64,000 nucleotides of DNA from Lachnospiraceae bacterium (GTDB lineage Bacteria > Bacillota > Clostridia > Lachnospirales > Lachnospiraceae), in assembly GCA_017542245.1 (NCBI GenBank), contig JAFXXN010000144.1, forward strand, positions 1 through 64,000, read 5' to 3'. Shown one piece after another: positions 5,533 through 37,700 of the stretch. Within the stretch, counting starts at the first letter, position 1; every line of letters starts with the position of its first letter. The translations under genes and the position numbers were made by a program. The notes beneath the pieces were generated by a model. The model searched no databases. It was not told the DNA's origin and saw nothing but the letters and a program-made list of their open reading frames with translations.

Positions 5533-5589
5533 AAGCGGCCTCCTTTGATTAGCATATATGCTAAATTTACATATGATTAAATTACAAAT

Positions 5590-5705
5590 ATTCGCAGAAA
5601 TGCGAATTTCTATTTTTATTATTAGCACAGAACTTTGAAACTGTCAACAAGAAATTTGCAAAAATGCGAAAAATTATTGACAAAAATTTGCAATTGTGCT
5701 ATTTT
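5590..5705. promoter_or_regulatory. Divergent promoters with three operator-like palindromes between ftsZ and the XRE regulator
   Basis: Rightward: TTGACA (5677-5682), 17-nt spacer, TATTTT (5700-5705). Leftward, read on the minus strand: TTGACA (5642-5647), 17-nt spacer, TAATAA (5619-5624). Three related half-palindromic sites lie within: TTCGCAGAAATGCGAA (5591-5606), TTTGCAAAAATGCGAA (5655-5670) and TTTGCAATTGTGC (5687-5699). The third fills the rightward spacer; the first is just downstream of the leftward -10. This is the expected layout for autoregulation by the XRE protein with co-repression of ftsZ. Promoters and sites are seen in the sequence; the binding protein is inferred. Confidence 0.72.
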
Positions 5706-8602: not shown

Positions 8603-8728
8603 ATGATTATGCGCAGGCTCATATTTTGGATAAGAAGGATGGTAGAAGGCAACAACAGGTATTGCACAAGATGCTGCCTAAACTGCCAGTATTTTAAAAG
8701 ATGCAGGCGGGATGGTTTTGAAAAATAA
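8603..8728 (+). CDS. Cysteine-rich mini-protein, 41 aa
   Basis: ATG 8603 follows GAGAGGAGAAAA. The product is basic with an amphipathic N-terminus (MIMRRLIFWIRRMV) and a tight cysteine cluster YCTRCCLNCQYFKRC. The spacing C-x2-CC-x2-C-x5-C could bind zinc. It lies between the 95-aa gene and the inverted repeat preceding the WYL regulator. It could be a DNA- or RNA-binding knuckle, a metallo-peptide, or a spurious frame; the SD and Cys pattern favour a real gene. Confidence 0.5.
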   Translation: MIMRRLIFWIRRMVEGNNRYCTRCCLNCQYFKRCRRDGFEK

Positions 8729-8759
8729 CCACGTACTATAAAGTTCCCACTGGAAAATG

Positions 8760-8806
8760 CCGATATATACTTTATATGGGTGCGATCTAACTAAAGTATA
8801 TATCGG
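8760..8806. promoter_or_regulatory. Perfect 15-bp inverted repeat covering the WYL regulator's leader
   Basis: Left arm CCGATATATACTTTA (8760-8774), 17-nt spacer, right arm TAAAGTATATATCGG (8792-8806). The right arm ends in the first two G of the GGAGG ribosome site (8805-8809). It could be an operator bound by the WYL protein dimer or an RNA hairpin that hides the SD. Confidence 0.8.
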
Positions 8807-8816
8807 AGGTGGGGAT

Positions 8817-9806
8817 ATGCCGAAAGGAAAAAAGCAAAAGCTGAAACTGTACTACCTGAACAAAATCATGACGGAAAAGACTGATGACCAGCACGGTCTA
8901 ACTATAAAAGAAATACAGATGCATCTGGCAAAATATGAATGTACGGCAGACCGTAAAAGCCTGTATGACGATCTGGATGCTCTCAGCGTCATGGGACTTG
9001 ATATCATAGGAGAACCGGAAGGAAATACCTACAGGTATCATGTAGGACAGAAACAGTTTGATATAGCAGAACTTAAACTTCTGGTGGATGCTGTTCAGTC
9101 ATCGAAATTTATAACAGAGAGAAAGTCGAATGATCTCATAAAAAAGCTTACCGGTATGGCCAGCGAATACGAGGCAGCACAGCTGAAAAGGCAGGTAGTG
9201 GTACAGGGGCGAGTAAAGACCATGAACGAAAGCATCTACTATGTTGTGGATGACATACACCGTGCTATAAGCCAGAACCAGCAGATAATGTTCGAATACA
9301 TGCAGTGGAACTTAAAGAAGCAGCTTGAGAAAAAGAGAAAAGATCCATATAAAGTCAGTCCTTGGGCACTCATATGGGCAGAGGAGAACTACTACCTTGT
9401 AGCCTATGATGAAGCTGAGGACTGCTTAAAGCATTTCCGGGTAGACAAGATGAAGAGCATAGCAGTATTAAAGGAGAAACGCAAGGGCAGGGAAAAATAT
9501 GAGAACTTTGACGTGGCACAGTACTCGACCAAGAACTTTGGTATGTATGCCGGGGAAGAGAAGGACGTCAGGATAGCCTTCAAGAATGAAATGGTAGGCG
9601 TTATAATAGACCGTTTTGGCAAAGAGATCATTATCCATGACTCAGATAAGAATGGCTGGTCGGAGACTGTAGTGAAAGTGGCTGTCAGCAGGCATTTCTT
9701 TGGGTGGATATTTGCTTTAGGACCGGAATTTACGATAACAGCACCAAAGGATGTGGTAAAGATGTTTAAAAATGCGGCTGAAGAAAGATTTAAGACTCTC
9801 GAATGA
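8817..9806 (+). CDS. HTH-WYL domain transcriptional regulator
   Basis: A 329-residue protein; the start is fixed by GGAGGTGG 7 nt upstream. Residues about 12-75 form a winged HTH (KLYYLNKIMTEKTDDQHGLT, IQMHLAKY, RKSLYDDLDAL). Residues about 130-215 form a WYL domain (YKVSPWALIWAEENYYLVAY, then LKHFRVDKM). The C-terminal WCX extension is about 90 residues. WYL proteins bind single-stranded nucleic acid or nucleotide ligands, and BrxR/CapW members repress defence operons from inverted repeats next to their own gene. The perfect 15-bp inverted repeat at its leader and the nuclease-rich island downstream fit that role. Target genes are inferred. Confidence 0.92.
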   Translation: MPKGKKQKLKLYYLNKIMTEKTDDQHGLTIKEIQMHLAKYECTADRKSLYDDLDALSVMGLDIIGEPEGNTYRYHVGQKQFDIAELKLLVDAVQSSKFITERKSNDLIKKLTGMASEYEAAQLKRQVVVQGRVKTMNESIYYVVDDIHRAISQNQQIMFEYMQWNLKKQLEKKRKDPYKVSPWALIWAEENYYLVAYDEAEDCLKHFRVDKMKSIAVLKEKRKGREKYENFDVAQYSTKNFGMYAGEEKDVRIAFKNEMVGVIIDRFGKEIIIHDSDKNGWSETVVKVAVSRHFFGWIFALGPEFTITAPKDVVKMFKNAAEERFKTLE

Positions 9807-9941: not shown

Positions 9942-11297
9942 ATGAAAAATGAAAATATAATTTATGGAATAATATTATTTGTACTGGTTTTAGTAACTAT
10001 ATTGGTGATTAATAAAATTAGATATAAAAAATTAGAGGCAGAAATTCTAGCAAGTTTGGGATTTAGAGATTGGGATACAGCTCCATATATTGATACATAT
10101 GTAAGTGTTAAAAGTAGACAAGCTATAGAAAAGTATGACGATGTTAAGTTTTTTAAAGAGAATAAAGATAAATTTACAGAGGCAGAAAAAAGATTAGTCT
10201 TAAAAAACAATATTGCAAAAATAATAAAAGATTTTTTGGCTGATAATGAATTTGAAAAGCGATACCCTTATAAGAAAGTAAAAAGAAATATCGATGCAGT
10301 GTTAATTAATGTTAGTGCTTATAGAGTACAAGTTGATTATATTTCATCTGCGGGAAATCACTTAGCTCAAAAAGAGTTACATATTAATCAACGCACACTA
10401 GATAAATTTAATAATGATCCTTCAATTCTTATGGGAAAAGCGGAATATAATAAATTCCTAAAAGAAACTGAAAAAAAAGAACTAGATAAAAAGCATCATT
10501 TATTTTATGAAAAAGTTAACAAAATAGTAGACTTTGCTTCAAATAATAAACCTTCCTTGATATTAAAAGAAAAGCAAGATATGTTAGATAGTCTGATTTC
10601 GCAGTTGTTTGACAGGACAGTAAACAGCATTCAGAAGATAAAGACGATAGATAGTGAAGAATGGGGGATAATTGATAAATATATTTCAAATATTGATAAG
10701 GAAATTAACGAAATAGTCAGCGAAAATCAGAAAATACTTGATTACTATGAATCTTCAGGGTTTCAGAAAATAAAAGCAACTTGTGAAGCATTGATGAGTT
10801 CTCAAAAAGAATTTAATGAATATATAAACGAAAAAGTTCATGCGATATCAACTTTATTTGGTACAAAAGTAATAAGAAATGAAACAGTAACAGAAGATGA
10901 ACATAATTATATTCGTCCATACAAAAAGACAATTACGCCTTTTACTGCGGAAGTATCAGCTGCAGTATTTGCTAGTGCAGAAAATAATCCAATAGAATAC
11001 ATTGTAAAAAATTTTTATCCTAATAAATCAATGTACCCTGAACAAATTCAGAAACTTCAGCTATTAATTGAAGAACTTGAAACATTAAGAGAAGCTAAAC
11101 AAATAATAGAAAATTATAAGAAGGATTATAAGCAGTATATTCAAGATGTGCCTGCGTTCATTATGGAAAAAGATGAGACCGGATTTTATTCAAGATTAGG
11201 TTTTGCATATATTGATGAGAGCGTTTTAACGGTTGAATATAAATTTCATATACATCTGGTGGTGGGTTTGCACAAAGATCATTTACTGTCCCAATGA
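9942..11297 (+). CDS. Membrane-anchored coiled-coil protein, N-terminal part of a frameshifted HNH protein
   Basis: A 451-residue frame with an N-terminal membrane helix (residues 6-24, IIYGIILFVLVLVTILVI), then a long Lys/Glu-rich helical region. Near its end it reads GFYSRLGFAYIDESVLTVEYKF. After that the sense passes to another frame, where TSGGGFAQRSFTVPM leads straight into the HNH domain encoded at 11294. A one-base change around 11240 would join the two into a single membrane-tethered HNH protein of about 545 residues, a layout I know from Lachnospiraceae. The frame is AT-rich compared with the flanks. It may be a disrupted gene, or the two parts may still work separately through the ATGA overlap. 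Confidence 0.75.
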   Translation: MKNENIIYGIILFVLVLVTILVINKIRYKKLEAEILASLGFRDWDTAPYIDTYVSVKSRQAIEKYDDVKFFKENKDKFTEAEKRLVLKNNIAKIIKDFLADNEFEKRYPYKKVKRNIDAVLINVSAYRVQVDYISSAGNHLAQKELHINQRTLDKFNNDPSILMGKAEYNKFLKETEKKELDKKHHLFYEKVNKIVDFASNNKPSLILKEKQDMLDSLISQLFDRTVNSIQKIKTIDSEEWGIIDKYISNIDKEINEIVSENQKILDYYESSGFQKIKATCEALMSSQKEFNEYINEKVHAISTLFGTKVIRNETVTEDEHNYIRPYKKTITPFTAEVSAAVFASAENNPIEYIVKNFYPNKSMYPEQIQKLQLLIEELETLREAKQIIENYKKDYKQYIQDVPAFIMEKDETGFYSRLGFAYIDESVLTVEYKFHIHLVVGLHKDHLLSQ

Positions 11298-11584
11298 CGG
11301 AAGAGAATATAGTTGAGCTAGTTAAAATTCTTGAAAGCAAATTAACGGCATCAGCATTTTCGAAAGAACAGAGAATGTTAATGACTAAAAAACTTCGTGA
11401 TTATATAAAGAATAGAGATAATTATACTTGCTGCAATTGTGGAAACTCGATTTATAATGAGCCTAATTTACTACTAGAAATTGATCATATAATTCCTGTT
11501 GCAAAAGGAGGTTTCACTGAAGAAAAGAATTTACAAACACTTTGTTGGAAATGTAATAGATCTAAAGGTGATAAGATACTTTGA
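11294..11584 (+). CDS. HNH endonuclease domain (C-terminal part, separated by frameshift)
   Basis: A 96-residue frame starting at an ATG that overlaps the previous stop (ATGA). The HNH core is clear: YTCCNCGNS (zinc Cys pair), LLEIDHIIPVAKGG (the H-H of the fold), NLQTLCWKCNRSKGDK (second Cys pair and the final N/K). It is a zinc-stabilised beta-beta-alpha metal nuclease that nicks or cuts DNA. With no SD of its own it depends on translational coupling, or it is the severed end of the upstream gene. The 320 bp after it hold only a decayed mini-gene. Confidence 0.85.
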   Translation: MTEENIVELVKILESKLTASAFSKEQRMLMTKKLRDYIKNRDNYTCCNCGNSIYNEPNLLLEIDHIIPVAKGGFTEEKNLQTLCWKCNRSKGDKIL

Positions 11585-13022: not shown

Positions 13023-14195
13023 ATGACAGATAATATTACTTCAAAAAACAGAATAGAATTTCAGATAGATACATCATATCATAATAGACTAGATATTTCC
13101 GGATTTTCTCAGATGATGAAAAATCCTTCGTTTTGTTATAAGTTTTACTGGTTGGAAGCTATAGTACAGATAGTTTCGAGGGATATAACGGAAACAACCT
13201 TTGACGAAATAATCAATGAGATGATATGTAATGCATGGTATTCCGTACGTGAATTTCATATTCATTTGAGCGGTATACAGGGAAACGAAATAAAGGATGG
13301 ATTGGAGAGAGCTATAATCAAGCTCACGGAATTAAGTAATCTGGCAGCAAATGATTCAAAGGTTGAGATAATAAATGCAATAAAAAAATATGATAAAGAA
13401 TTGAAGGAATATAAAGAACAGCTGACCAACATGGTTCCGTACAGGGCTCTGGCCGGATTCTTTGGTAATGCAGGTACACCTGAATGGGAAAGTATCCGGA
13501 GAATGACAGCGTATATTGAGAAAGTTAACCGTGAGGTGGTTACACTTCCATATATACTGGGAGTTTCTCCTAAGTTAAAAAAGGAAGTGCATATTAATCC
13601 TGAATGGGCTGAAATGATAAAAGACAACACTGTAGCCATACTTGGTTGGATACAATATGAAAAAGTAAAGTGGCTTCAAAATAATAATCCGGAAGTGCCG
13701 GGACTTGTTTATAAGCTAGCACCTATGGATGATAAAATGCGTAAACTTAACAAAGTACGCAAACTATGGGAAGGTATTCTAGAATTATCTGAAGTACACG
13801 ATGTGTTTACCGGCGACAAAGTGATATCAGGAAATTATGATGTTGATCATTTTATACCATGGTCTTTTGTTATGAATGACGAATTATGGAACTTGATGCC
13901 CATGGATTCTTCTTTGAATTCTTCAAAAAGTAACAAACTTCCCAAATGGGATCCCTTTTTTAAGAGTTTCGCACAAAACCAGTATCTTATGTATAACCTA
14001 TTGCATGAGAAGGCTGGAATATATAAATTATTTGAAGGTTGCTACCGCGATAACTTACATTCTATCTGGGCTGGGCAGGAGCTTTATAGAAAAGGTAATA
14101 CTCAAGAAGAGTTTTATAATATTTTGGCTAAAAACATGCAGCCGGTATACGATTCTGCCAAGCGGCAGGGATATGAGATTTGGAATATAAGTTGA
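13023..14195 (+). CDS. HNH endonuclease family protein
   Basis: A 390-residue protein, mostly helical, with an HNH core around residues 265-300: FTGDK, NYDVDHFIPWSF, then LWNLMPMDSSLNSSKSNKLP. The D-H pair and the N...N/K end match the HNH_4-like nucleases. The Cys residues of zinc-bound HNH proteins are absent. SD AAGGAG lies 7 nt upstream. It is followed 56 nt later by two DUF262 genes in the same direction, so it may be the nuclease partner of the first DUF262 protein, which lacks its own HNH. Inferred role: DNA restriction. Confidence 0.88.
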   Translation: MTDNITSKNRIEFQIDTSYHNRLDISGFSQMMKNPSFCYKFYWLEAIVQIVSRDITETTFDEIINEMICNAWYSVREFHIHLSGIQGNEIKDGLERAIIKLTELSNLAANDSKVEIINAIKKYDKELKEYKEQLTNMVPYRALAGFFGNAGTPEWESIRRMTAYIEKVNREVVTLPYILGVSPKLKKEVHINPEWAEMIKDNTVAILGWIQYEKVKWLQNNNPEVPGLVYKLAPMDDKMRKLNKVRKLWEGILELSEVHDVFTGDKVISGNYDVDHFIPWSFVMNDELWNLMPMDSSLNSSKSNKLPKWDPFFKSFAQNQYLMYNLLHEKAGIYKLFEGCYRDNLHSIWAGQELYRKGNTQEEFYNILAKNMQPVYDSAKRQGYEIWNIS

Positions 14196-14251
14196 TAGAG
14201 TCATATAAATAAAACTTTAATGAAAGAAAGAACGTAGCAAAGGATAAACAC

Positions 14252-15739
14252 ATGGATAATAGACTTATACTTGGGATCAGCAAAATAGGTGACCTTCTTT
14301 TACATAACAAAATATCCAGAAATGAAGATGGTGTACCCATCGAAGATGTTCATTTGAGTATTCCGGAATATCAACGACCATATAAATGGTCGGCTAAAAA
14401 TGCCAACCAACTTCTTGATGATATAGAGGAAGCAAAAAACGATAATAAGGAAGTTTATCGTGTCGGTACTCTTATTCTTCATAAGGACGACTCAGGAAGG
14501 TATAATATTGTTGATGGTCAGCAGCGTACGATAACATTTTCGCTTATACTGAAATGTTTATGTGAAGAAAAGATTGATTTTATATCAGAAAAATTATCAA
14601 ACAATACCTTTAATCTTCATAATGTCTTGAATAATTTTCTCTCGTTAAAAAGACGTATTGAACGTTTATCGGATGAAAAAGAGAAAATGGATTTGTGTGA
14701 TTATATTGAAAATCACTGTGAATTGATAGTGGTTATTACTAAAGACTTGTCCGAAGCATTTCAGTTTTTTGATTCACAGAATGCCAGGGGGAAGGCACTA
14801 TACCCTCATGATCTCTTAAAAGCTTATCATTTAAGAGAAATGAGAAGTGTTAGTGTTATGGAAACTGAAGAAATAGTAAAAACATGGGAGGAAATGAATC
14901 AGAAACGACTGGCAGTTCTTTTTAATGATTATCTGTATCGATTAAAGGAATGGGTTAAAGGCAATAGGGCAGATGAGCTCACGGAGCATAATATTGATAT
15001 CTTTAAGGGTGTTACATCCAGAGATAATCATCCTTATGCGCAATATTACAAAGGTGCTTTTGCGTATGCTAATGAGCTGAATCATTCGCATGTTCCGTTT
15101 GTTACAGGTATTCAGGAGATAAGTCCGTTTCAGATTAATGCACCCATTATAGCCGGAGCATCATTTTTTGAATATGCTAAACATTATTTTGATATTCTGG
15201 CAGATATTCAGAATAATGACAAATACGAAGGATATTTTATAAATGATAACGAAATAGTTAAAACCTTGGATCTACGTGAGTATAAAAACGGTGTTGGCAA
15301 TCATATTACCAGATTGATGTTTGATTCCGCTATACTTCTTTATGTTGACAGATTCTGCCCGGCAAAACCTTCGAAAGTTGATACAGAATATCTTGAACAA
15401 TTTGTTATATTCGCATTTATTTGGGCATACTCCATGCGTGCGCAGTATCAAAATGTGGGCTGGCTGGTGGCACAGAATTATATTATGGGAACAACAAATA
15501 AAGAAGAAATTGTAAATGATTTTAATATTTTTAAGATTATAGTAGATTCGGATTCACCACAGCTTTTGCTTAGTAAGCTGACAGACTTTTTGGAACCGCT
15601 TAAATTATCGCAGGTCCATCATAAGATTAAAGAACCGCTTGGGGCGAAAAAAGACAATGTATTTCTAAATTATTTGGACCATTTTAAACAGCATAAATTT
15701 ATGGAGAAAAGTAATGAGCAAGAAAACACTACCACTTAA
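14252..15739 (+). CDS. DUF262 protein (GmrS-like ParB/Srx-fold NTPase domain)
   Basis: A 495-residue protein with the DUF262 motifs: IPEYQRPYKW (37-46), VDGQQRTITF (87-96) and, further on, FDSQNARGKALYPHDLLKAY. In GmrS the DGQQR motif belongs to the nucleotide-hydrolysing ParB-like fold that drives cleavage of glucosylated hydroxymethylcytosine DNA. There is no DUF1524/HNH half at the C-terminus, unlike the next gene. The two overlap by 26 nt, indicating coupled translation. It is probably a type IV restriction-like component whose nuclease function is supplied in trans by a neighbour (inference). Confidence 0.9.
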   Translation: MDNRLILGISKIGDLLLHNKISRNEDGVPIEDVHLSIPEYQRPYKWSAKNANQLLDDIEEAKNDNKEVYRVGTLILHKDDSGRYNIVDGQQRTITFSLILKCLCEEKIDFISEKLSNNTFNLHNVLNNFLSLKRRIERLSDEKEKMDLCDYIENHCELIVVITKDLSEAFQFFDSQNARGKALYPHDLLKAYHLREMRSVSVMETEEIVKTWEEMNQKRLAVLFNDYLYRLKEWVKGNRADELTEHNIDIFKGVTSRDNHPYAQYYKGAFAYANELNHSHVPFVTGIQEISPFQINAPIIAGASFFEYAKHYFDILADIQNNDKYEGYFINDNEIVKTLDLREYKNGVGNHITRLMFDSAILLYVDRFCPAKPSKVDTEYLEQFVIFAFIWAYSMRAQYQNVGWLVAQNYIMGTTNKEEIVNDFNIFKIIVDSDSPQLLLSKLTDFLEPLKLSQVHHKIKEPLGAKKDNVFLNYLDHFKQHKFMEKSNEQENTTT

Positions 15740-17753
15740 AGAAGTATCTATAGCCGGAATTTTTGATGGAAATGATAATTTCATATACGAAATCCCTATC
15801 TATCAAAGAAATTATGCCTGGGAAAAGGATGAAATTACTACACTTGTTCAGGATATTTATGATTCCCTTCGAAAAAATCCGGACAAGGTATATTATATTG
15901 GAACTCTTGTATCCTTTCATAAAGGTGATAATGTATTTGAAATCATTGATGGACAACAGCGCCTTACCACTATCCGACTTTTATTGGGAGCATTAGAGCA
16001 AAATAATTTAAAAAGTAAATTAACATATAGGGCACGGAAAAAATCGGATGAAACGTTAAAAGCAATTCCGGCATTCAATATAGATGAGAAGGATGGGGGA
16101 ATTGAAAATGGGTACAAATACGCAAGAACAGCTATAGATGAAATCGTTCCTAAAGATGAGAGGGCTGTTTTCTGTGAGTATTTTAAAAATAAAGTTCATA
16201 TTATTCATTATCAGGTGCCAAAAGATATTGACCTGAATCATTATTTTGAGATTATGAACTCAAGAGGTGAGCAGCTTGAAAAACAAGAGATAGTCAAAGC
16301 AAAGTTAATGCAAAAGCTTGATTCTGATGAGGAAAGAACTGTCTTTAATGCTATTTGGGAATGCTGTAGTGAAATGAACGTATATGTTCAACAGAATATG
16401 ACTAAGCTTGATAAAGAGGCTGTTTTTGGAAAAACTCTGATAGAATTTATTCCAAATAATTTTGAAGATATACAGATACAGTATAAACGTGGGCATGATA
16501 AAGAAACGGAATCATTATCGATAGAAAATATTATAGATTTGAATGTAGGTAATTGGGTTAAACTGGAAGCTGAAATTGAAAAAAAGGATTCTTTCCAGCA
16601 AATAATTGATTTTCCAAACTTTTTATTGATTGTTTTAAAATTTACTCGAATGACAGAACCGGGATTTGATCCTATAAAATTCCAGTTAGATGATAAAGAA
16701 TTATTGAATGAGTTTGATGAAGCTCGTTTTAATGCAGAGACTGTAAGATTATTTGCATTCAATTTGTTAAAGTGCAGATTCTTTCTTGATAACTACATAG
16801 TACATCATTCTAAGGAAGAGGATAACTTTGACAGTAATCCATGGAAACTTCAGGTATGGCATAGGGATGTGGCTTCGAAGAAAACTATGCTGGCCAATCT
16901 CTGTGAAAATAATGAAGAAAATGGGTTCCTTCAGGATAGACTGGCACATTTGCTTTCTATGTTTGAAGTATCATTTACTGCAAGACAAAGGAAAAACTAT
17001 TTATTCTATTGTCTTTTATATTTGATGGGGAAAAAAGAAATAGACCTTTTTAAGTATGCAGAGTTTGTCGAAAAATTGGCCAATAGGTATTTTGCAATGG
17101 TTTATTTGGATAAAAATATGTTAAATGCAATTAATACACCTATCCCGGGCAGTTTTGATGAAGTTATACTGAAGGAGAATAGGCTGAATTGGGATTATTT
17201 TCCACAACCTACAAAGTTTGCATTTGATAATATTTATGGAACAGGTGAAATTAAATCTAATGGAGTGCCGTTATTTATATTCAACTATTTAGACTATAAA
17301 TTATGGAAGCTTTATAGTGTTAAACTACGTGGTAAAGAATATAAAGAAGACCATTATATTCGAAGGGAGTTCTTTGCTCAACTAGGTTGTTCGGATTTTG
17401 GCCAAAAGATTTTTGATCAATTTTATTTTTCCAGAACTCGAAGAAGCTTGGAGCATTATTATCCGCAGGCAAATGCAACAGGGAAAGACGGAGCCCTGAA
17501 TGAAAACCAAATAAATTGCTTAGGTAATTATGCTATGATAGGAAGTGAAGCCAACAGTGCCGGGTCAAATTGGACGCCGTTAACTAAATTGGATCATTAT
17601 TTGGATCAATCAAAGAAGATATCTCAGATAAGTGTAGCTTCAATTAAGTTTATGATTATGATGCAGATGTGTAAAGACAGTCAGAAATGGGATTTTCAAT
17701 CAATTGTGGAACATCAAAATAAAATGGTAGAGATTATTTTAAATACGAAGTAA
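15714..17753 (+). CDS. DUF262-DUF1524 protein (GmrSD-like restriction enzyme)
   Basis: A 679-residue protein with a complete GmrSD layout: IPIYQRNYAW (27-36) and IIDGQQRLTT (77-86) in the DUF262 half, then NSRGEQLEKQEIVKAKL around 182-198. A long helical middle leads to a C-terminal DUF1524 HNH-like nuclease with SLEHYYPQ near residue 580 and INCLGNYAMIGS after it. The His and Asn residues of the HNH site are present. GmrSD enzymes cut modified phage DNA; Nmad proteins later in the island concern modified bases, so a shared theme is possible. The start overlaps the previous gene by 26 nt. Confidence 0.92.
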   Translation: MSKKTLPLKEVSIAGIFDGNDNFIYEIPIYQRNYAWEKDEITTLVQDIYDSLRKNPDKVYYIGTLVSFHKGDNVFEIIDGQQRLTTIRLLLGALEQNNLKSKLTYRARKKSDETLKAIPAFNIDEKDGGIENGYKYARTAIDEIVPKDERAVFCEYFKNKVHIIHYQVPKDIDLNHYFEIMNSRGEQLEKQEIVKAKLMQKLDSDEERTVFNAIWECCSEMNVYVQQNMTKLDKEAVFGKTLIEFIPNNFEDIQIQYKRGHDKETESLSIENIIDLNVGNWVKLEAEIEKKDSFQQIIDFPNFLLIVLKFTRMTEPGFDPIKFQLDDKELLNEFDEARFNAETVRLFAFNLLKCRFFLDNYIVHHSKEEDNFDSNPWKLQVWHRDVASKKTMLANLCENNEENGFLQDRLAHLLSMFEVSFTARQRKNYLFYCLLYLMGKKEIDLFKYAEFVEKLANRYFAMVYLDKNMLNAINTPIPGSFDEVILKENRLNWDYFPQPTKFAFDNIYGTGEIKSNGVPLFIFNYLDYKLWKLYSVKLRGKEYKEDHYIRREFFAQLGCSDFGQKIFDQFYFSRTRRSLEHYYPQANATGKDGALNENQINCLGNYAMIGSEANSAGSNWTPLTKLDHYLDQSKKISQISVASIKFMIMMQMCKDSQKWDFQSIVEHQNKMVEIILNTK

Positions 17754-17898
17754 TACATAATTGCTTTAAAGCAAGTACAATAATCAGTACGGAATATATT
17801 ATGTATTGAATAAGGCTGCCGAGTATATATGCAGAACGATAAAAATCTATATGATTAAAATCAGAAAGTTTGCTAAATCGATAAGATGAGGGTGAATT

Positions 17899-19353
17899 AT
17901 GGATACAGATTATATATACCCTGTAATTGAATTTCTTAAACATAATGATAACAATACAGCTACATTGAGTGATGATGGAGATAATCTGGTGCAGTTCTTA
18001 AAATTGATGAAAGTTTCTGCAAAGGTAGCTTATGTTGAGGCTTCATCAGTATCTTCTTTGTATGCAATAGAACTGGCACCCGGAGTCAGGGTAAGTAAAG
18101 TAACGAGTCTGAAGCATGAATTATCGGTAGAGTTAAAAGCAATAGATATTCAATTCCTTATTCCTATTCCGGGTACTTCTTATTTGGGCATTAGGGCTAT
18201 TAAACCAGATGCACCAGAGGTGTTACTTGGTGATTACTTAATTAATGACTCTTATTTGAAATCAAGAAATAACTTGGAAGTGGTGTTAGGTAGACTATAT
18301 GATGGAAAGCCGGCATATTTTGATTTTAGAAAACTGAATCATCTTTTGATATCCGGAACTACAGGATCAGGTAAGAGCATCTTTATTGATTCAATTATAG
18401 TAAATTTGCTGTATAAATCAAGTCCGGATGAATTAAAACTAATTTTGATAGATACACACGCCCTAAATCTTTTAAGGTTTAATAATCTTCCTCACTTGAT
18501 ATTACCGGTTATTACAGATTGCAAAAAAGCTTGTGCTGCTTTGGCATGGTTATTATCAGAAATGGATTATAGATATCAGGAATTGTCGTATAAAGGAGTA
18601 AAGAATATTGATGCATATAATGTAATGATGAATGAAGAAGGACAAAAAAGAATGCCTGATATATTGATGATTGTAGATGATCTGGCAGATATAATGGCTG
18701 AAGCTGCATATGCAAATGATTTTCAAGCGGATTTAGACAGGCTTTCCGGTATGGCAAGATTTGTAGGAATTCATTTACTTTTATCAATACAAAGACCGTC
18801 TTCTGAGATTGTTTCAAGTACAGTTAAGATGAATATCCCTAACCGCATAGCTTTTAGAACTGTATCAGGTAATGATTCCAGATTAATAATTCAAGTTGGC
18901 GGAGCAGAGCATTTGAATGGAAACGGAGATATGCTTTTTAAACAATTAGGACAACAAGAACCGTTAAGGATTCAAGGGCCATACGTTTCAGATGAAGAGA
19001 TAGATATTGTAGTTGATTTTGTGAAAAGAAATAGTGGTTTTTATACTTTTAGTAAACCGGAAGTTATTTGCCAAAATGTACAAAAAATAGTGATCCCTTC
19101 AGATATTGATAATAGTTTAGATACAAATGATGAGTTTTTAGAAGAGGCAGCGAGACTGATAATAAAAAAACAAAAAGCTTCGGTTGGAATGCTACAGAGA
19201 GAGTTTAGAATTGGCTTTAATCGTACAGCCAAAATCATGGATAAACTTGTCGAATTGGGTGTGGTAGGTCCTGAAGAGTATACTAAGCCAAGAAGGATTT
19301 TAATGAATATGGAAGAATTTGAAAGTATGCTTTTGGAAAGGCCATTTACTTAA
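17899..19353 (+). CDS. Soluble FtsK/SpoIIIE-like DNA translocase
   Basis: A 484-residue protein with the alpha, beta and gamma parts of FtsK but no membrane domain or linker. The alpha segment includes LAPGVRVSKVTSL (59-71). The RecA motor has Walker A GTTGSGKS (153-160) and Walker B ILMIVDDLAD (255-264). The C-terminal 70 residues are a gamma-type winged helix (GMLQREFRIGFNRTAKIMDK). The usual IDPKMVEL segment of FtsK reads IDTHALNL here. FtsK pumps double-stranded DNA. A cytosolic version in an accessory locus suggests mobile-element transfer or a defence translocase rather than chromosome segregation. It lies 18 nt before the exonuclease gene. Confidence 0.92.
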   Translation: MDTDYIYPVIEFLKHNDNNTATLSDDGDNLVQFLKLMKVSAKVAYVEASSVSSLYAIELAPGVRVSKVTSLKHELSVELKAIDIQFLIPIPGTSYLGIRAIKPDAPEVLLGDYLINDSYLKSRNNLEVVLGRLYDGKPAYFDFRKLNHLLISGTTGSGKSIFIDSIIVNLLYKSSPDELKLILIDTHALNLLRFNNLPHLILPVITDCKKACAALAWLLSEMDYRYQELSYKGVKNIDAYNVMMNEEGQKRMPDILMIVDDLADIMAEAAYANDFQADLDRLSGMARFVGIHLLLSIQRPSSEIVSSTVKMNIPNRIAFRTVSGNDSRLIIQVGGAEHLNGNGDMLFKQLGQQEPLRIQGPYVSDEEIDIVVDFVKRNSGFYTFSKPEVICQNVQKIVIPSDIDNSLDTNDEFLEEAARLIIKKQKASVGMLQREFRIGFNRTAKIMDKLVELGVVGPEEYTKPRRILMNMEEFESMLLERPFT

Positions 19354-19371
19354 TATATGGAGAAAGAGATT

Positions 19372-20076
19372 ATGCTTTCAGCAAATATGGGAAAGAAACT
19401 GAATATATATGTAAAGGACTATGTGGTTTTTGACCTTGAGACTACAGGAACTTCTTGTACCGGTGATGAAGTGGTGGAAATATCTGCTATAAAGGTGCAA
19501 GACGGTCGGGTGGTTGAGGAGTTTTCTACACTTGTAAATCCTCAGATACCGATTCCTTTCTGGGCAACGGATGTAAATGGAATCACTGACAAAATGGTAG
19601 CCAATGCTCCGACTTTTGATAAGGCGTTGGCTGATTTTCTTACCTTTGTCGGTGATATGGTTCTTGTAGGACATAACATCCATACGTTTGATATGAAGTT
19701 TATCTGCAGGGATGCTGTTAAGTATTTCGGTAAGACTATCGGAAATGATTATATTGATACGCTTCCACTGGCTCGGATCTATCTGCCGCAACTGGGACAT
19801 CATACACTTACAGGTCTTGCTCGATATTACGGTATCAGTATTTCTGGGGCTCACAGGGCCTTGAATGACTGCCGTATGAACCAGCAGATTTTTGAGCGAC
19901 TTGCTGAGGAGATGAAGAATCCGTCGGAAGAAGCGAAGAAAGTAAAGAAGTGTCCGAGGTGTGGCAGCCCTTTGAAGCTCCGTAGTGGAAAATTTGGTAA
20001 ATTCTGGGGATGTACTTCTTATCCTAACTGCAGATATACAAAAGATGCCGAGGAAAATTCAATATACGAGGAGTAG
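19372..20076 (+). CDS. DEDDh 3'-5' exonuclease with C-terminal topoisomerase-type zinc ribbon
   Basis: The ATG at 19372 is preferred over the one at 19357: GGAG lies 9 nt before it, and a duplicated fragment at 25670 begins with the same MLSxNMGKKLNIYV. The 234-residue protein has ExoI VVFDLETTG (D21, E23), ExoII HNIHTFDMKF and ExoIII HRALNDC, the DnaQ/PolC-epsilon pattern. The last 50 residues form a four-Cys zinc ribbon (CPRCGSPLKLR...FWGCTSYPNC) as at the tail of topoisomerase I, probably for gripping single-stranded DNA. Single-strand trimming next to a DNA pump is plausible. Confidence 0.93.
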   Translation: MLSANMGKKLNIYVKDYVVFDLETTGTSCTGDEVVEISAIKVQDGRVVEEFSTLVNPQIPIPFWATDVNGITDKMVANAPTFDKALADFLTFVGDMVLVGHNIHTFDMKFICRDAVKYFGKTIGNDYIDTLPLARIYLPQLGHHTLTGLARYYGISISGAHRALNDCRMNQQIFERLAEEMKNPSEEAKKVKKCPRCGSPLKLRSGKFGKFWGCTSYPNCRYTKDAEENSIYEE

Positions 20077-20168
20077 ATGCGATTCATTTTTAGTTTAGCG
20101 TATATGAATCATTATTATGATAATAGTATATATTTATCAGAGTTAATTTTGTGATTTTGAGGTAGGGT

Positions 20169-21149
20169 GTGAAAGATATAAATCGGGACAAAACGATTGT
20201 TAAAGCAAAATCAGAATATGAACTCCTTCAGGAAGAGATTCAGAGGCTTCAAACAGAGATAGCTAATCTCATGGCAGAAAGAGATGATCTTATCTGTCGT
20301 GAGTGCAAGGAGATTGCCGCTGATTATGATGAAAAGATAGGACAGTTGGAGCTTGAAGTTTTGCATGCTCAAATAGAGCTTCATAAGCTGAAAGCTATTA
20401 TTGAGATGCTCCAAGCCAGCATTAACCTGCAGAAAGAATTGGATGAAGCATATGCTAGGCTAGAAGCAGAGAAAAAGGCTGCTCAGTTTGAAGAAGAACT
20501 GAACAGAAAAGCTGAAGAAGCAAAAAGTAACAGGGAATTCAAAAAGAGCGAGGAAGAAAAGGAAGAAGAATGGCAGCGGGAACAAGAGCAAAAAGAGCAG
20601 GAACGTAAGGAAAGAAAAGAGAGCGAAGCCAAAGAGAAAAAAGAAAACGGTACAGAAAAAGAGGAAGAACGTACCGAAGATTCCGAAGCCGAGAGAAAGT
20701 ACAAGTCCAGAACGGATGAGATGAAAGCTCTATACCGAAAGATAGTGAAAGTACTTCATCCGGATGTCAACCCTGATATAACGGAAAAAGAGAATGATAT
20801 GCTGATAGAGGCGACAACAGCCTATAGGGAAGGTGATCTTGAAACACTTCGTAAAATAGCAGCTATGATTGATTCCGGTGCAGTGGGCGACGGCAATGTT
20901 TTTGACGAGGAGTTTGATTTAGAAAGACTTCGTGAGATTGTTGAAGAATTAAAGAGATGTGTTACAGTACTGCAGATGGAAATATACGGGATAAAGACTT
21001 CATTTCCTTATAACATGAAGGATTTCCTGGCAGATGAGCAGGCTGTAGTAGAAAGACAGATAGAACTTAGGAACATATTGAAGGAGACCACAGAGGATAT
21101 AGTTAGGCTTGAGAAGCGTATTGATGAGATGACTAAGGGAAAATATTAG
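20169..21149 (+). CDS. Coiled-coil protein with J-like domain
   Basis: A 326-residue protein with a GTG start after GAGG. Residues 15-110 and 115-180 are strongly coiled-coil, the second stretch being extremely Glu/Lys/Arg-rich. At 183-235 a J-like domain appears: MKALYRKIVKVLHPDVN, with the diagnostic HPD at 197-199 and a following helix. J domains stimulate Hsp70 ATPase, but here no DnaJ zinc or substrate domains exist, so it may be a specialised adaptor. The C-terminus is again helical. It lies 13 nt before the HIRAN gene and is probably co-transcribed with it. HPD is seen directly; chaperone linkage is inference. Confidence 0.8.
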   Translation: MKDINRDKTIVKAKSEYELLQEEIQRLQTEIANLMAERDDLICRECKEIAADYDEKIGQLELEVLHAQIELHKLKAIIEMLQASINLQKELDEAYARLEAEKKAAQFEEELNRKAEEAKSNREFKKSEEEKEEEWQREQEQKEQERKERKESEAKEKKENGTEKEEERTEDSEAERKYKSRTDEMKALYRKIVKVLHPDVNPDITEKENDMLIEATTAYREGDLETLRKIAAMIDSGAVGDGNVFDEEFDLERLREIVEELKRCVTVLQMEIYGIKTSFPYNMKDFLADEQAVVERQIELRNILKETTEDIVRLEKRIDEMTKGKY

Positions 21150-21162
21150 GGAGGTGTTCTTT

Positions 21163-22026
21163 ATGGGAAAGAGGAATGGGACTGAACTGAGTACCATTAC
21201 ATCATCCGAACTGTCGTCCGTCATATATAGTCCGCTTGGGGAGACGATAAAGAATCCGTTTTCGAGAGAGATATTTCTTCTTGGGGTAAGAGTTGCAGGC
21301 TTAAGATATAGGGATAATATCGATGAACTGCTTAAGAACCTAAAAGTAGGGGATAAAGTAATTTTTGTCCGTGAACCGGAGAATGAATATGATGACTTTG
21401 CCATCATGATACTGAATGAGGATAAAGTGAAACTGGGGTATGTTCCCAGAGTTAATAACGAAATTCCTGTTAGGCTGATGGATGCGGGCATGAAACTATC
21501 CGGAAAGGTTTCAAGGATAAAAGAACCTGAAGAGGATATATATCCTTGGGATGCACTTTACGTTGATATATTTCTGGATGAAAACAGTAATGCGTTATTG
21601 CCTGAATTTGGTAAGCAACAAGAAGGTCAGGATAACGGATTTCCATCAAAGATATCCGGATTTCTGCATACTACATTTTCAAGTGAGATGAACAGGCCGT
21701 TTTCACGGGAGATATTTTTAGCTAATTTTCCGGCAATGGAAAGCCATAGGATACAGAACTTGCAAAGAGTTTTGTGCAAGATGAAAGTAGGCGACAGGGT
21801 ATTGCTTCGCAGGGAGCCGGACAATGAAAAAAATGATATGGCAATTATCGTATTGAACAAACGAAAGCGTAGGTTGGGATATATCCCTCGCTCTCATAGT
21901 ACTATTCTTGCAAGGCTCATGGATGCCGGCAAACATATTTATGGCATTGCATACAAGATAGATAATGAAAAGAACGGTGTTTGGTCTCGTAACATGATTG
22001 TTATTGATGTTTATATGGAGGTCTGA
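21163..22026 (+). CDS. Double HIRAN-domain protein
   Basis: The start ATG lies 8 nt after GGGAGG. Two related domains of about 85 residues are visible. One is at 33-118 (FSREIFLLGVRVAG, then LKVGDKVIFVREPENEYDDF and LGYVPR). The other is at about 180-265 (FSREIFLANFPAM, MKVGDRVLLRREPDNEKNDM, LGYIPR). Both match HIRAN, a domain known from HLTF/Rad5 helicases that holds the 3' end of single-stranded DNA, and in bacteria often found alone beside nucleases. There is no helicase or nuclease here; the protein probably recognises DNA ends for the exonuclease or translocase encoded upstream. Confidence 0.9.
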   Translation: MGKRNGTELSTITSSELSSVIYSPLGETIKNPFSREIFLLGVRVAGLRYRDNIDELLKNLKVGDKVIFVREPENEYDDFAIMILNEDKVKLGYVPRVNNEIPVRLMDAGMKLSGKVSRIKEPEEDIYPWDALYVDIFLDENSNALLPEFGKQQEGQDNGFPSKISGFLHTTFSSEMNRPFSREIFLANFPAMESHRIQNLQRVLCKMKVGDRVLLRREPDNEKNDMAIIVLNKRKRRLGYIPRSHSTILARLMDAGKHIYGIAYKIDNEKNGVWSRNMIVIDVYMEV

Positions 22027-22878: not shown

Positions 22879-23610
22879 ATGAAAATAATTCCTAATATCA
22901 ATTCAGAAGATATTATCTATACCTATAAAGAACAAGTGTTTACTGGTTTCGCACCTTGCTTTCAAGACGGTATATATTCGTTAGCCTGTTGTAAAGGTGC
23001 TATGAATGGAAAAGGTATGAGACAGAGCATTTGCAAAACTATTGATTCTGGTAAAACTGTCTGGGTTATGGCTATTGCGGGGTGTGATATAAAGCACAGT
23101 AATAACAATACTTCAGGAATATCATATGAACCGGGAGACGCTTTATATTTAGCAAGGATTGATAAAATATGTACATGGTACGAATATTCTACGTTGGACA
23201 ACTATTGCAAAAGAAAAGATTCTTATTATGTTCTTAAGGACGGGATGGTTGATTGGAGAAAAATACAGGACAACCTTCATTCTAATGAAATTAATAAACT
23301 GACTGATTGCGGTATTGGTTTACGCAATTTAAAAGGCAGAACTGAGGCGGATATTTTTAAAAATGACAAGCAAATTTTGTTAGCTAAAGAATACTATGTA
23401 TTTGATAAAGGACAACGATTATCCGGAGTGGATGTATATAAAACGATAGATGTAAACCGTGGGTATAGTTATATTGAAAAAACAAAGCCTAGCAGAACAA
23501 GTATTCTAAAAGAATTTTTGAAAAGGAATCATTCGTTTAAGTTTTGTGGCGGAAAGGATCCGTTTACAGATACGGCGTTAACTAAAGAAGGCGGTTGTAG
23601 ACGAAAGTAA
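22879..23610 (+). CDS. Nmad2-like protein (nucleotide modification associated domain 2)
   Basis: A 243-residue protein whose N-terminal third matches the Nmad2 pattern: TGFAPCFQDGIYSLACCKG at about 22-40, then VWVMAIAG, then a YLARIDKI strand. Nmad domains were predicted by comparative genomics to act with systems that make or read modified DNA bases; biochemistry is scarce. SD TTTGGAGA lies 8 nt before ATG. The C-terminus (GGCRRK) overlaps sequence that reappears before the Nmad3 gene at 25716, suggesting the two genes were once adjacent and overlapping. It is probably cytoplasmic. Confidence 0.75.
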   Translation: MKIIPNINSEDIIYTYKEQVFTGFAPCFQDGIYSLACCKGAMNGKGMRQSICKTIDSGKTVWVMAIAGCDIKHSNNNTSGISYEPGDALYLARIDKICTWYEYSTLDNYCKRKDSYYVLKDGMVDWRKIQDNLHSNEINKLTDCGIGLRNLKGRTEADIFKNDKQILLAKEYYVFDKGQRLSGVDVYKTIDVNRGYSYIEKTKPSRTSILKEFLKRNHSFKFCGGKDPFTDTALTKEGGCRRK

Positions 23611-23651
23611 TACTATAAAGAAAAGGTTTTGATAATTCATTTGGTGGTTCA
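23584..23651 (+). repeat. Direct repeat, left copy: old nmad2/nmad3 junction
   Basis: It matches 25716-25783 over 68 bp with scattered differences. It contains the end of nmad2 and the beginning of an nmad3 frame (ACG AAA GTA ATA CTA), which here hits a TAA where the right copy has TCA. Confidence 0.8.
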
Positions 23652-25287: not shown

Positions 25288-25605
25288 ATGGTTAATATTT
25301 CTAAATCTGATTGGAAACTTTTTCAGGAGAGATTGCCTGATTGGCAGGAAAACTATATGGAAAGACTTTTGAAGGAGTACGCTAAGATAATAAAATCTTC
25401 AGAAAAACCTTCTGAGCGCTTCTGGAAACTAGAGAAAAGGATTAATGAAGACTCTAAAAGTCCGGGCGTAATAATAAGAATAGAAAAGTCTGAGACAATT
25501 TGGAATATCGCTAAATTATTAAGACTTGGCGTTATAACTGAAGACGATCTTGAAGGGTTTAGTCCGGAACTTATAGACGCTGTAAAGCAATATCTGTCAT
25601 TTTGA
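25288..25605 (+). CDS. Small helical hypothetical protein, 105 aa
   Basis: A highly charged all-helical protein (MVNISKSDWKLFQERLPDWQ, then FWKLEKRINEDSKSPGV and LLRLGVITEDDLEGF). I have seen similar short proteins in Firmicutes accessory regions, sometimes loosely annotated as multidrug-transporter related, which the sequence does not support: there is no membrane helix. SD is weak (TGAGG, 9 nt). It sits in the insert between the direct repeats. Function unknown. Confidence 0.7.
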   Translation: MVNISKSDWKLFQERLPDWQENYMERLLKEYAKIIKSSEKPSERFWKLEKRINEDSKSPGVIIRIEKSETIWNIAKLLRLGVITEDDLEGFSPELIDAVKQYLSF

Positions 25606-25669
25606 TATAGAAGAATTTTTAAAGATTGCTAAATGAAATGATATTTACTTGATTTTTGGAGACGATGAT

Positions 25670-25710
25670 ATGCTTTCATCAAATATGGGGAAGAAACTGA
25701 ATATATATGT
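25670..25710 (+). repeat. Copy of the first 41 bases of the exonuclease gene
   Basis: ATGCTTTCATCAAATATGGG and onward matches 19372-19412 with few changes and then stops in frame soon after. It also brings a GGAG element upstream. It is a duplication fragment, not a gene. Confidence 0.75.
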
Positions 25711-25715
25711 CAATT

Positions 25716-25783
25716 AAAGGAGGCTGGTGTAAACGAAAGTAATACTATCAAGAAAAGGTTTTGACAGTTCATTTGGTGGTTGT
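25716..25783 (+). repeat. Direct repeat, right copy: nmad2/nmad3 junction
   Basis: Counterpart of 23584-23651. Together they bracket about 2.06 kb carrying the GIY-YIG gene, a broken gene, the 105-aa gene and the exonuclease fragment. Confidence 0.8.
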
Positions 25784-35800: not shown

Positions 35801-35957
35801 AAAGAAACTTAGCAGTACAGGAAAGATGCTGGGAATAATTACCCATATTGAAGCTGTAATACAATCATTTAATCAGATTGAGGCTGTAAAGGTTGGAGAG
35901 AAGAGTATATTGAAGGGCCCGGGAGTTACTTATACAGATAATGCCAAAAGAAAATGA
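32799..35957 (+). CDS. sbcC: Exonuclease subunit SbcC (Rad50-like)
   Basis: A 1052-residue protein; ATG 32799 is preferred (GGAGG 5 nt upstream, protein then begins MKILKLTFENINSYEG). Walker A GPMGSGKST lies near residue 42. Long coiled-coil arms meet at the zinc hook CCPVCGKS around residue 513. The ABC signature FSGGEKF is near 950 and Walker B IFLDEGFGTL near 980. This is the full-length SMC-type ATPase partner of SbcD. The coiled coil is extremely rich in Lys and Glu. The gene ends before a short AT-rich gap. Confidence 0.97.
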   Translation: MKILKLTFENINSYEGKVEIDFTDPDFHKGNNQFVICGPMGSGKSTILDAITLALFGSTARLGRLTTSSADTSKELINKHSGYCRSEVVYSCSKGVFESVFELHKARDKADGNIQKPQCAIFEIIDGEKTKTLLDSTTTDSLQRKTEEIIGLSYEQFIRCILIPQGEFDKFLTSDDREKAAILAKLSHTEHFKKAAEILNNKASQINQEYSTLKAKRDAIPIMAEEERKADEEETKVLGKAISEQDDKLKELDIKINWKKQVQDAESECTKAKNELDKVNSGQQEYENKTAELKNAKKAEDCEIEYLNFNKCAEDQKKVQSDIKTAENELNNQNVAKAEAEKISGQKSGELEQKKAEKKKQKELWNKVRDLDKEIFAAKQSRDDKEKASNKAKSNFEDKQKQYNENEKSVKDCEGKITELKDYLDKNSADANLEVTLATFAEKKRSWKTADTKYKQSCEQEKECQEIIRQLNEEKAAFVKERDEISNNLHDLVNSKYLLVAGILRRDLKPGDCCPVCGKSISSMDNNGQYEEHSHLKADMDEEQEQVATDISNMHDSLENLENLIKDKEKELSDAENNLKNKRESAEQAKKDIAAICVELNSLLQDWNIQVSENISEKELTYLNSLLSNKNNTYKETKSKHDLMMQKIETLTSEMKGIDLNELKGTCDEAVTAFSEADGKYINLSNERKQLFGEQNVDTVEKAFDETLNEMEKGKEKAQKDLEAKIREITATQTKIDGNRRRVDELKKQQIDLEKELHDKMEKNQFSSLEEFLACQRDKSVINELEEFIKEYDTKKTAADTSYRNAKEKHENLLKQSLTDETSELLNARKEELEGSKKENSEKIGGLKKKLELDDENKKAWNAADAQLQKIGEEAIIYKKINEMLGKKDGSDFEVFVQGIAMRSLLEKANVYLSSIIPKYRLVQKKENSIGFLVLETMGDLTEIKRELSNFSGGEKFIISLSLALAMAEFAGQNGDVECIFLDEGFGTLSGDPLIDAINALKKLSSTGKMLGIITHIEAVIQSFNQIEAVKVGEKSILKGPGVTYTDNAKRK

Positions 35958-36848: not shown

Positions 36849-36965
36849 CTTGACAAAAAGTATATAGAAGTATATATCTGAATAAGAAGTATATGTTTTT
36901 GTACGCAATAATCAGATATAAAAAGGCAAAAATGGGACAGAAGGAGATTGACAAAGAGTAACATT

Positions 36966-37700
36966 ATGGAAACTAAAGACATGATTTATACTCAGAAAAG
37001 AACCATAAGTTCTGCATATGTTGACTGGAGCGTGAAACTGGGTATTGCACAGGCTCAGCTCATGGTACAGGACAGTATGACAGAGTGTTTTGGAAAGATG
37101 AAGTGTGATGATGTTAGTCTTATAAAGTTAGGTTATTTCTGGGTACTGACAAAATCGAAAATTAAAGTATTTAAACGTCCGGGATGGAATGATACGGTTG
37201 AGACTTCTTCATTTCCTGCAAAGAATTCCGGGATAAGAACATATGTGAATACTGTATTTAAGGATATGAAAGGTGAATTGCTTCTTACAGCAAATCAGGA
37301 GTTATGCCTTCTTGATGTTGAGAAGCACAGACCGGCTCCGATTTCAAAGGTTCCGTATCCTACTGAGAATTTTCCTGATGCAGTTATTTCAGATAACTTT
37401 GAAAAAATAATGTTCCCGGATTCTGATTATACTGTAATTTATGAGCAGGTTATAAGGCCATCTAATCTTGATATGCTGCATCACCTTAATAACATCGAGT
37501 ATGTAAAGTTTGCACTTAATGTATTTTCGGAGAAGTTCCTGTTAGAACACGAGATTGATGAGATTGAGGTTCATTACAAGGCTGAGAGCAAAGAGAATCA
37601 GACATTGAAGATCATGAGGAAAGATATTGGGAATACGGTATATATAAGGATTAAAGAGAGCGAACGGTGTGTTTCGGATTTGAAGATATGTTTTGCTTAA
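36966..37700 (+). CDS. Acyl-ACP thioesterase
   Basis: A 244-residue protein of the plant/bacterial FatA/B-type family with two hot-dog folds. The first helix region reads SSAYVDWSVKLGIAQAQLMV. The second hot-dog has the catalytic-region pattern RPSNLDMLHHLNNIEYVKFA (Asn and His of the active site), then a paired Glu in YKAESKE. It hydrolyses acyl-ACP to release free fatty acid. ATG 36966 is chosen; a TTG at 36948 is possible but only 2 nt from AAGGAG. A terminator follows 10 nt after the stop. Confidence 0.88.
   Translation: METKDMIYTQKRTISSAYVDWSVKLGIAQAQLMVQDSMTECFGKMKCDDVSLIKLGYFWVLTKSKIKVFKRPGWNDTVETSSFPAKNSGIRTYVNTVFKDMKGELLLTANQELCLLDVEKHRPAPISKVPYPTENFPDAVISDNFEKIMFPDSDYTVIYEQVIRPSNLDMLHHLNNIEYVKFALNVFSEKFLLEHEIDEIEVHYKAESKENQTLKIMRKDIGNTVYIRIKESERCVSDLKICFA

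Follow-up and report, generated by a model that had tools for sequence, protein, structure and literature searches.

Seven consecutive open reading frames (ORFs) are located in a row on the plus strand at positions 13023 to 22026 of a 64,000-nt stretch of Lachnospiraceae DNA, which is referred to as a whole as the window. They encode an HNH nuclease, two DUF262 proteins, a short soluble FtsK, a DEDDh exonuclease (Exo), a J-domain protein (J) and a double HIRAN protein, and an earlier interpretation of this DNA, the sequence-only reading, proposed that they form one undescribed defence system. The locus raises the question of whether the seven genes form one machine or share only a place on the chromosome. 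As described, the seven-gene set is not a system. The whole is probably a WYL-anchored variable chromosomal defence hotspot, which holds a TgvAB-like DUF262 pair and a mobile J-HIRAN pair that would act as a DNA-targeted Hsp70 co-chaperone, with HNH, FtsK and Exo as independent neighbours. The seven-gene story is thus replaced by two testable units. In the following, G numbers denote genomes and L numbers denote loci or fetched DNA regions.

Co-occurrence and neighbourhoods of the seven genes

Seven consecutive same-strand genes are indeed present; their order, homology and motifs were observed directly. The proposed domain list is borne out by Pfam and by direct motif reading, which revealed DGQQR in both DUF262 proteins, Walker A and Walker B in FtsK, and DLETTG and HxxxxD in Exo; the weakest assignment is that of J (Pfam DnaJ E 2e-4, below the Pfam cut-off). 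FtsK was also described correctly as a membrane-free DNA pump: its maximal 19-residue hydropathy is 1.37, and it lacks a transmembrane-like stretch. Several genes had been said to overlap or nearly so, but with spacings of 56, -26, 145, 3, 92 and 4 nt, there is a single overlap, that of the DUF262 pair, and the other gaps comprise 3 to 145 nt.

Co-occurrence was counted in a family survey of 249 other genomes, across which all expectations and P values were computed. HIRAN matches were found in 20 and HNH homologues, some of them fragments, in 53 of these genomes (HNH at E 1e-8), and six genomes carry both (expected 4.3, P 0.23). Exo, counted at E 1e-64 or better, is present in 25 genomes, in three of them within a frame longer than 900 aa; it shares two genomes with HIRAN (expected 2.0) and seven with HNH (expected 5.3, P 0.26). 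The first DUF262 protein, present in five genomes, co-occurs with HNH in one (expected 1.1). The seven are thus not found together beyond chance in other genomes. The HNH and Exo neighbourhoods were analysed using the window proteins as queries at E 1e-4, a threshold at which divergent DUF262 pairs could escape; a few contigs are short (L125, L127, L153). None of the 20 HNH neighbourhoods (19 from other genomes and one around a further copy in the window's own genome) contains the DUF262 pair, and a single weak DUF262 match was seen, in a 937-aa protein of L124. FtsK, J and HIRAN were not seen in any of the 19 fetched Exo neighbourhoods; a twentieth region of the Exo set, L162, was taken owing to a partial J match and stands outside the 19. 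Likewise, no FtsK was found in the DNA examined (3-20 kb each) for the best 80 HIRAN loci.

Two observations weigh against a separation into unrelated parts. An HNH homologue (34% over 374 aa; 1512 onward) directly follows HIRAN in L226, one of the two loci most closely related to the J-HIRAN pair of the window, hinting at an HNH-J-HIRAN link, and HIRAN is found in two of the five genomes with the first DUF262 protein (expected 0.4, P 0.05), although on different contigs. Together with the uninterrupted row of same-strand genes, the L226 arrangement would fit a single undescribed defence machine that senses, translocates, recognises ends and cuts; such a machine is, however, very improbable and already largely refuted by the HNH and Exo neighbourhoods, the near-chance co-occurrence of HIRAN with HNH and Exo, the lack of FtsK at HIRAN loci, and a syntenic locus of G266 without five of the seven genes. 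An HNH-DUF262 module was rejected as well (0 of 20 neighbourhoods, one common genome vs 1.1 expected). The fallback split of the sequence-only reading into HNH-DUF262 and FtsK-Exo-J-HIRAN was drawn wrongly; the recurring units are DUF262-DUF262 and J-HIRAN. An integrative-element or phage backbone, the first of which the same reading had considered as a counter-explanation, was also rejected, as the whole window contains no tRNA or Rfam match, and no integrase or relaxase was found among the 30 Pfam-scanned proteins of about 62 window ORFs of at least 90 aa.

A variable hotspot between a WYL regulator and a thioesterase

Rather than forming a single system, the seven genes most likely lie within a chromosomal defence hotspot that is anchored by a WYL gene and variable in content. 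In the window, the WYL-domain regulator and an acyl-ACP thioesterase are 27 kb apart, and a matching locus (L219) was found in G266, which belongs to the same genus. In this locus, WYL is followed by HNH, which is 91% identical, and then by genes for a GIY-YIG protein (32%) and another WYL protein of greater divergence. Next come a PDC-S25/ThsA-like protein, a protein of 624 aa, an ABC transporter and an opposite-strand ORF, and the series ends with the acyl-ACP thioesterase (86%), an Lrp-type regulator (54%) and Exo (86%). Here, HNH sits directly after WYL, and L219 gave no match to either DUF262 protein, FtsK, J or HIRAN. The G256 locus L214 holds together a DUF5131 gene (85%), an Nmad3 piece, Sel1, J, HIRAN, Sel1 and the thioesterase (83%). 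The hotspot reading is based on G266, in which the synteny from WYL to thioesterase encloses other genes than in the window, and on Sel1-J-HIRAN-Sel1 beside the same thioesterase in G256. The host assembly consists of 203 contigs with 8.6% contamination; synteny with two same-genus genomes argues that the contig is sound in this region.

The WYL gene, for which relatives point to the ATG at residue 21 (8817) as the conserved start, is present upstream of the seven genes as the sequence-only reading had noted, but three genes intervene between it and HNH. Of the Nmad proteins placed downstream, Nmad3 at 25811 was recovered (E 4e-49), whereas the Nmad2 match at 22879 (E 0.04) does not reach the cut-off. 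WYL copies that are 77-83% identical to that of the window are located elsewhere in the same genome as well as in G259 and G266. Ten proteins from five WYL-headed loci were compared with PADLOC, and three of the five loci have a defence or candidate-defence match among the tested proteins of the first three downstream genes, namely a type I methyltransferase in L045, a ZorD/DpdE-type helicase and an MzaB-like protein in L223, and PDC-M33A and PDC-M33B in L222. In L219, the PADLOC match, PDC-S25, is the fourth gene and lies directly after the second WYL gene. The only tested protein of L220 had no PADLOC match, and the same is true for single tested proteins in L219, L222 and L223. PADLOC matches downstream of WYL copies in the genus support the defence-type context that had been proposed, and they reveal a WYL regulator with near-identical copies heading different defence loci. 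A 39-aa cysteine-rich reading frame (8609-8728) is located just upstream of the WYL gene. As judged by eye, its sequence recurs in conserved form ahead of six further WYL copies in the genus, and two of these loci are near-identical.

J-HIRAN as a mobile two-gene unit

J and HIRAN form a mobile two-gene unit, which is found under many phylum labels. A scan of named-species genomes with a HIRAN alignment yielded 408 relatives, the best 80 of which were analysed; in a first genome-contig scan, the window HIRAN protein alone as query gave no match. Using a profile search within 1.5 kb on the same strand, J was found beside HIRAN in 79 of these best 80 loci, the labels of which span 11 phylum groups, many entries being metagenome-assembled with submitter titles. 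A set of 99 loci was compiled from the 80 named loci, 18 genus or family loci chosen for holding the pair, and one viral locus (at least three contigs are counted twice). J is present in 98 of them, 95 times in the order J-HIRAN and three times reversed, with a median gap of 7 nt. In the family, J adjoins HIRAN in 16 of 18 fetched HIRAN genomes (J of G203 is split over two frames), and the matches of G028 and G110, which are outside these 18, are shorter or weaker. Two of 23 other genomes of the genus have a HIRAN match, both with J. Exceptions that weigh against a strict pairing are L277, the sole one of the best 80 loci without J, and two of the 18 fetched genomes (L043, L044), in which J is lacking and the HIRAN matches are shorter or weaker.

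The surroundings of the pair vary. One Lachnospiraceae clade has a Sel1/TPR gene ahead of J, a WYL gene follows the pair in a few loci, and a GIY protein comes after HIRAN in L260. L303 has a weak DUF262 match, and L296 is the sole locus among the best 80 with a weak Exo match.

In a quick tree, the window pair groups with L224 and L226 with a support of 99, and families are mixed at short distance. L260 (Caproiciproducens) and L261 (Lacrimispora amygdalina PI-S10-A1B), which both derive from isolates, share 9.8 kb at 96.3% identity, comprising HsdR, an AAA ATPase, McrC, two unknown genes and J-HIRAN, and a further 4.4 kb beyond a differing insert. When 12 loci were compared with L261, seven had only the approximately 1.3-kb pair in common with it (74-89% DNA identity; two contigs begin at the pair), and L260, L244, L281, L252 and L271 had more than the pair in common. 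The L260/L261 identity and the pair-only matches show that the pair moves from one family to another, partly as an independent unit.

Predicted function of the J-HIRAN pair

The HIRAN protein is recognised by Pfam at E 3e-33, and its profile matches HLTF structures (E 4e-6) and the structure 3k2y (E 7e-18). Most relatives possess a single HIRAN domain in about 130 aa; the window copy is a tandem double. The J-family profile matches a DnaJ structure at E 3e-5; J carries an HPD motif between helices II and III, which does not vary among the 18 J proteins that were aligned. The invariant HPD, together with the DnaJ-structure match at helices II-III, makes a contact with Hsp70 likely. Deduced from the domains only, the pair (20169-22026) most likely serves in conflict or repair as an Hsp70 co-chaperone that is targeted to DNA. 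HIRAN would anchor the complex on DNA ends or single-stranded DNA, where the J domain would recruit and fire DnaK, thereby remodelling or clearing bound proteins; in some relatives, this would take place together with an ADP-ribosylglycohydrolase (ARG). Such a unit couples a domain of Hsp70 co-chaperones with one that binds DNA and, if it acts in this way, would be a new bacterial way to act on nucleoprotein at DNA ends.

Several findings speak against parts of this assignment. The J match covers only helices II-III. At the positions which presumably meet the DNA 3' end in the HLTF HIRAN pocket, domain 1 of the window protein has GLRY and domain 2 has ESHR; 13 of 15 relatives have G-T-T/S-H there, and LRY is present solely in window domain 1. 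Since the pocket residues differ in most relatives, DNA-end binding may not hold for the J-HIRAN family. With regard to defence, 103 proteins, a random part of 267 J-HIRAN neighbours, matched 174 PADLOC families compared with 81 for 100 control proteins near Exo, an excess that is considered weak because the families are redundant and nearly all of the first 25 listed have one member. A defence role of J-HIRAN is thus not established by this enrichment.

The most far-reaching interpretation would be that J-HIRAN is an undescribed, widely mobile conflict system, in which HIRAN directs J, via DnaK, to invader DNA ends or replication intermediates, thereby stripping or remodelling phage nucleoprotein, in some lineages with ADP-ribose removal. 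The window form would be elaborated by the doubled HIRAN and by the recruited pump and exonuclease. This proposal is tentative and rather unlikely. A general DNA-repair or replication-stress module that does not serve defence is conceivable, although still on the unlikely side: HLTF HIRAN belongs to a fork-remodelling helicase (PMC8262856), defence enrichment among J-HIRAN neighbours is weak, and the pair is mainly chromosomal. Among 72,556 plasmid records, there was no match to J at E 1e-5 and a HIRAN match on two; viral contigs contain two HIRAN loci, one of them with J (L304: J, HIRAN, ARG), and a distant HIRAN was detected in seven records, all of Pseudomonas phages, in which J was not looked for. 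Such a general role is harder to reconcile with the patchy occurrence of HIRAN in the family (20 of 249 other genomes), with the mobility of the pair between families and with its position after HsdR-AAA-McrC genes in L260/L261.

It could also be speculated that J-HIRAN belongs to the ARG-chaperone conflict systems, which were predicted, together with WYL regulators, to counteract viral ADP-ribosylation (PMC9503650); the pair would then help to reverse ADP-ribosylation by phage enzymes. An ARG was indeed found fused or nearby in eight of the 99 J-HIRAN loci. It is fused to the N-terminus of J, with HIRAN as the next gene, in L224, L251 and L303, the L224 fusion locus being a near relative of the window pair, and it adjoins the pair in L304 as well as in L234 and L241, which are near-identical to each other; L287 has a partial match, and in L215, the gene is 2.8 kb away. 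However, 91 of the 99 loci and the window are without an ARG in the DNA searched (in the window, a profile built from three fusion proteins gave no match at E 1e-4), and the main text of PMC9503650 contains neither "DnaJ" nor "J domain", which makes membership of J-HIRAN in these systems improbable.

The DUF262 pair

The two DUF262 genes at 14252-17753 are, on the basis of their layout and motifs, a TgvAB-like type IV restriction pair of the GmrSD type. Both adjacent genes encode an N-terminal DUF262 domain (Pfam E 7e-30 and 2e-33), and QR, DGQQR and FxxxN motifs, as published for TgvAB, are present in both proteins. The second protein, which contains LEHYYPQ at 579 and GN at 604, matches PF07510 (DUF1524) with 32.0 bits at a cut-off of 23; the first protein has no such match. 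TgvAB was reported to restrict T-even phages and to depend on both genes, on the DGQQR motif in each of the two proteins and on the DUF1524 histidine of TgvB (PMC11411939). The window proteins would function as two DUF262 NTPase/sensor proteins, and the His-Me nuclease of the second would cut modified phage DNA.

At E 1e-30, the second DUF262 protein was found in three of the 249 other genomes. In all three, its gene comes directly after the first gene and overlaps it; two of these second genes are short, and one of the two lies at the end of a contig. A point against an obligatory pair is that two of the five genomes with the first DUF262 protein show no second; the copy of G092 is cut by the contig end, and the G009 frame contains an internal stop. 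Homologues of the first protein are located on 990 plasmid records, 907 of which are from Klebsiella. In the three plasmid records that were opened, the next gene is adjacent and on the same strand. It is annotated as DUF262 in the Vibrio aerogenes and Aliarcobacter records, in the former also with an HNH nuclease and within a type I restriction-modification (RM) locus, and both genes are annotated as hypothetical in the Klebsiella record.

HNH, FtsK and Exo

HNH, FtsK and Exo are independent neighbours of the two pairs. An ORF of 197-210 aa overlaps or abuts HNH just upstream in eight of the 20 HNH loci, and the three of these ORFs that were tested all encode a SAM methyltransferase. In two of the 20 loci, L142 and L140, homologues of the window HNH (39-45%) end Dnd phosphorothioation operons; the parts scanned comprise PAPS reductase, AAA, DndE and aminotransferase in L142 and DndB in L140.

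FtsK and Exo are a lineage-specific combination. The short FtsK is 45% identical to the long FtsK of the same genome, and all other FtsK matches lie in frames of at least 538 aa. This holds for 200 genomes of the family at E 1e-105 and for 24 of the genus at E 1e-60, limits at which a divergent short FtsK could be missed. A degraded second FtsK-end/Exo-start junction is located at 25605-25713 (110 nt, 79% to 19307-19415). It forms part of a fused remnant (25605-25781) on the 5' side of the Nmad3 gene, in which the junction copy is followed by 73 nt with 88% identity to 23577-23649. The 3-nt gap and the degraded junction copy suggest that FtsK and Exo have probably been neighbours since before a duplication in the island. 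FtsK-Exo and J-HIRAN may form a lineage-specific operon, and the gaps of 3, 92 and 4 nt as well as the apparent age of the FtsK-Exo adjacency would be consistent with a four-gene operon that arose when the older J-HIRAN pair acquired a DNA pump and a 3'-5' exonuclease for DNA-end processing. This view is doubtful, as FtsK was not seen beside J-HIRAN in the best 80 named loci or the 18 family loci, a second short FtsK was not among the matches in 24 genus genomes, and Exo of G266 (86%) is located about 12 kb from HNH without FtsK. In G041, an Exo homologue lies about 8 kb from J-HIRAN.

Other features of the stretch

The genes of the locus and the edges of the hotspot are compiled in Table 1. 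Between the WYL gene and HNH, 9942-11297 directly follows WYL and encodes a protein with one N-terminal membrane-like stretch and without a Pfam match. It overlaps by 4 nt with a 96-aa HNH-like ORF (11294-11584; HNH by eye only), and both could possibly form a two-gene module (9942-11584). A calcineurin-like phosphoesterase followed by an overlapping gene for a 1056-aa SbcC/Rad50-like ATPase is encoded at 31475-35957, and a tubulin/FtsZ-family gene is located on the minus strand near the left side of the hotspot (4402-5628). A promoter and terminator scan of the DNA was uninformative (38 promoter-like sites vs 40 expected).

Table 1. Genes at 13023-22026 and the edges of the hotspot
Feature	Position	Strand	Basis or remark
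WYL-domain regulator, left hotspot edge	8757..9806	+	paralogues head other genus loci
HNH_4 nuclease, separate module	13023..14195	+	Pfam E 1e-10
TgvA-like: DUF262 (GmrSD_N) + DUF7834	14252..15739	+	Pfam, motifs; 495 aa
TgvB-like: DUF262 (GmrSD_N) + DUF1524 (GmrSD_C) His-Me nuclease	15714..17753	+	26-nt overlap with TgvA-like gene
Short soluble FtsK: alpha + motor + gamma	17899..19353	+	Pfam, motifs; 484 aa
DEDDh exonuclease (Exo): RNase_T + Zn_ribbon_Top1	19357..20076	+	Pfam, motifs
Coiled-coil J-domain protein, HIRAN partner	20169..21149	+	HPD at residues 197-199; weak Pfam DnaJ
Double HIRAN protein	21154..22026	+	Pfam, two HIRAN stretches
Acyl-ACP thioesterase, right hotspot edge	36948..37700	+	AsnC/Lrp-type regulator (37907) next

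Comparison with known systems

No description of the J-HIRAN pair as a unit was found in the open literature; its single components are known. The HIRAN region of the window protein matches PADLOC PDC-M03B, a candidate defence protein, at E 1e-27, and no PADLOC match was obtained for J at E 0.01. HLTF/Rad5 HIRAN and bacterial HipL/HipN (PMC8262856) have the HIRAN domain in common with the window protein; however, they are associated with a helicase or kinase partner, whereas the window HIRAN is a tandem double and is paired with a J protein. Prokaryotic HIRAN domains were called uncharacterized in a passage of another study (PMC11090510). The ARG-centred chaperone systems resemble J-HIRAN loci in the presence of a chaperone gene and WYL regulators and, in eight of 99 loci, of the enzyme itself; they differ in that the J domain is not among the chaperones named in the main text of PMC9503650, in which HIRAN appears only beside ARPP, and in that ARG is absent from the window in the profile search. 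The chromosomal FtsK/SpoIIIE translocases share alpha, motor and gamma domains with the window FtsK, which differs from them by its length of 484 aa without a membrane part.

The closest correspondence to a described system is that of the DUF262 pair to TgvAB (PMC11411939), with which it shares two adjacent genes for N-terminal DUF262 proteins, the QR/DGQQR/FxxxN motifs and a C-terminal DUF1524 His-Me nuclease in the second protein. This likeness to the Vibrio cholerae proteins was judged on layout and motifs, and the window pair differs in that it is not located inside a type I RM locus and in that its first protein, with 495 aa, contains a DUF7834 part. As judged from these features, the pair would be a further member of the known TgvAB-type systems, and a TgvAB-like pair is now recorded in Lachnospiraceae.

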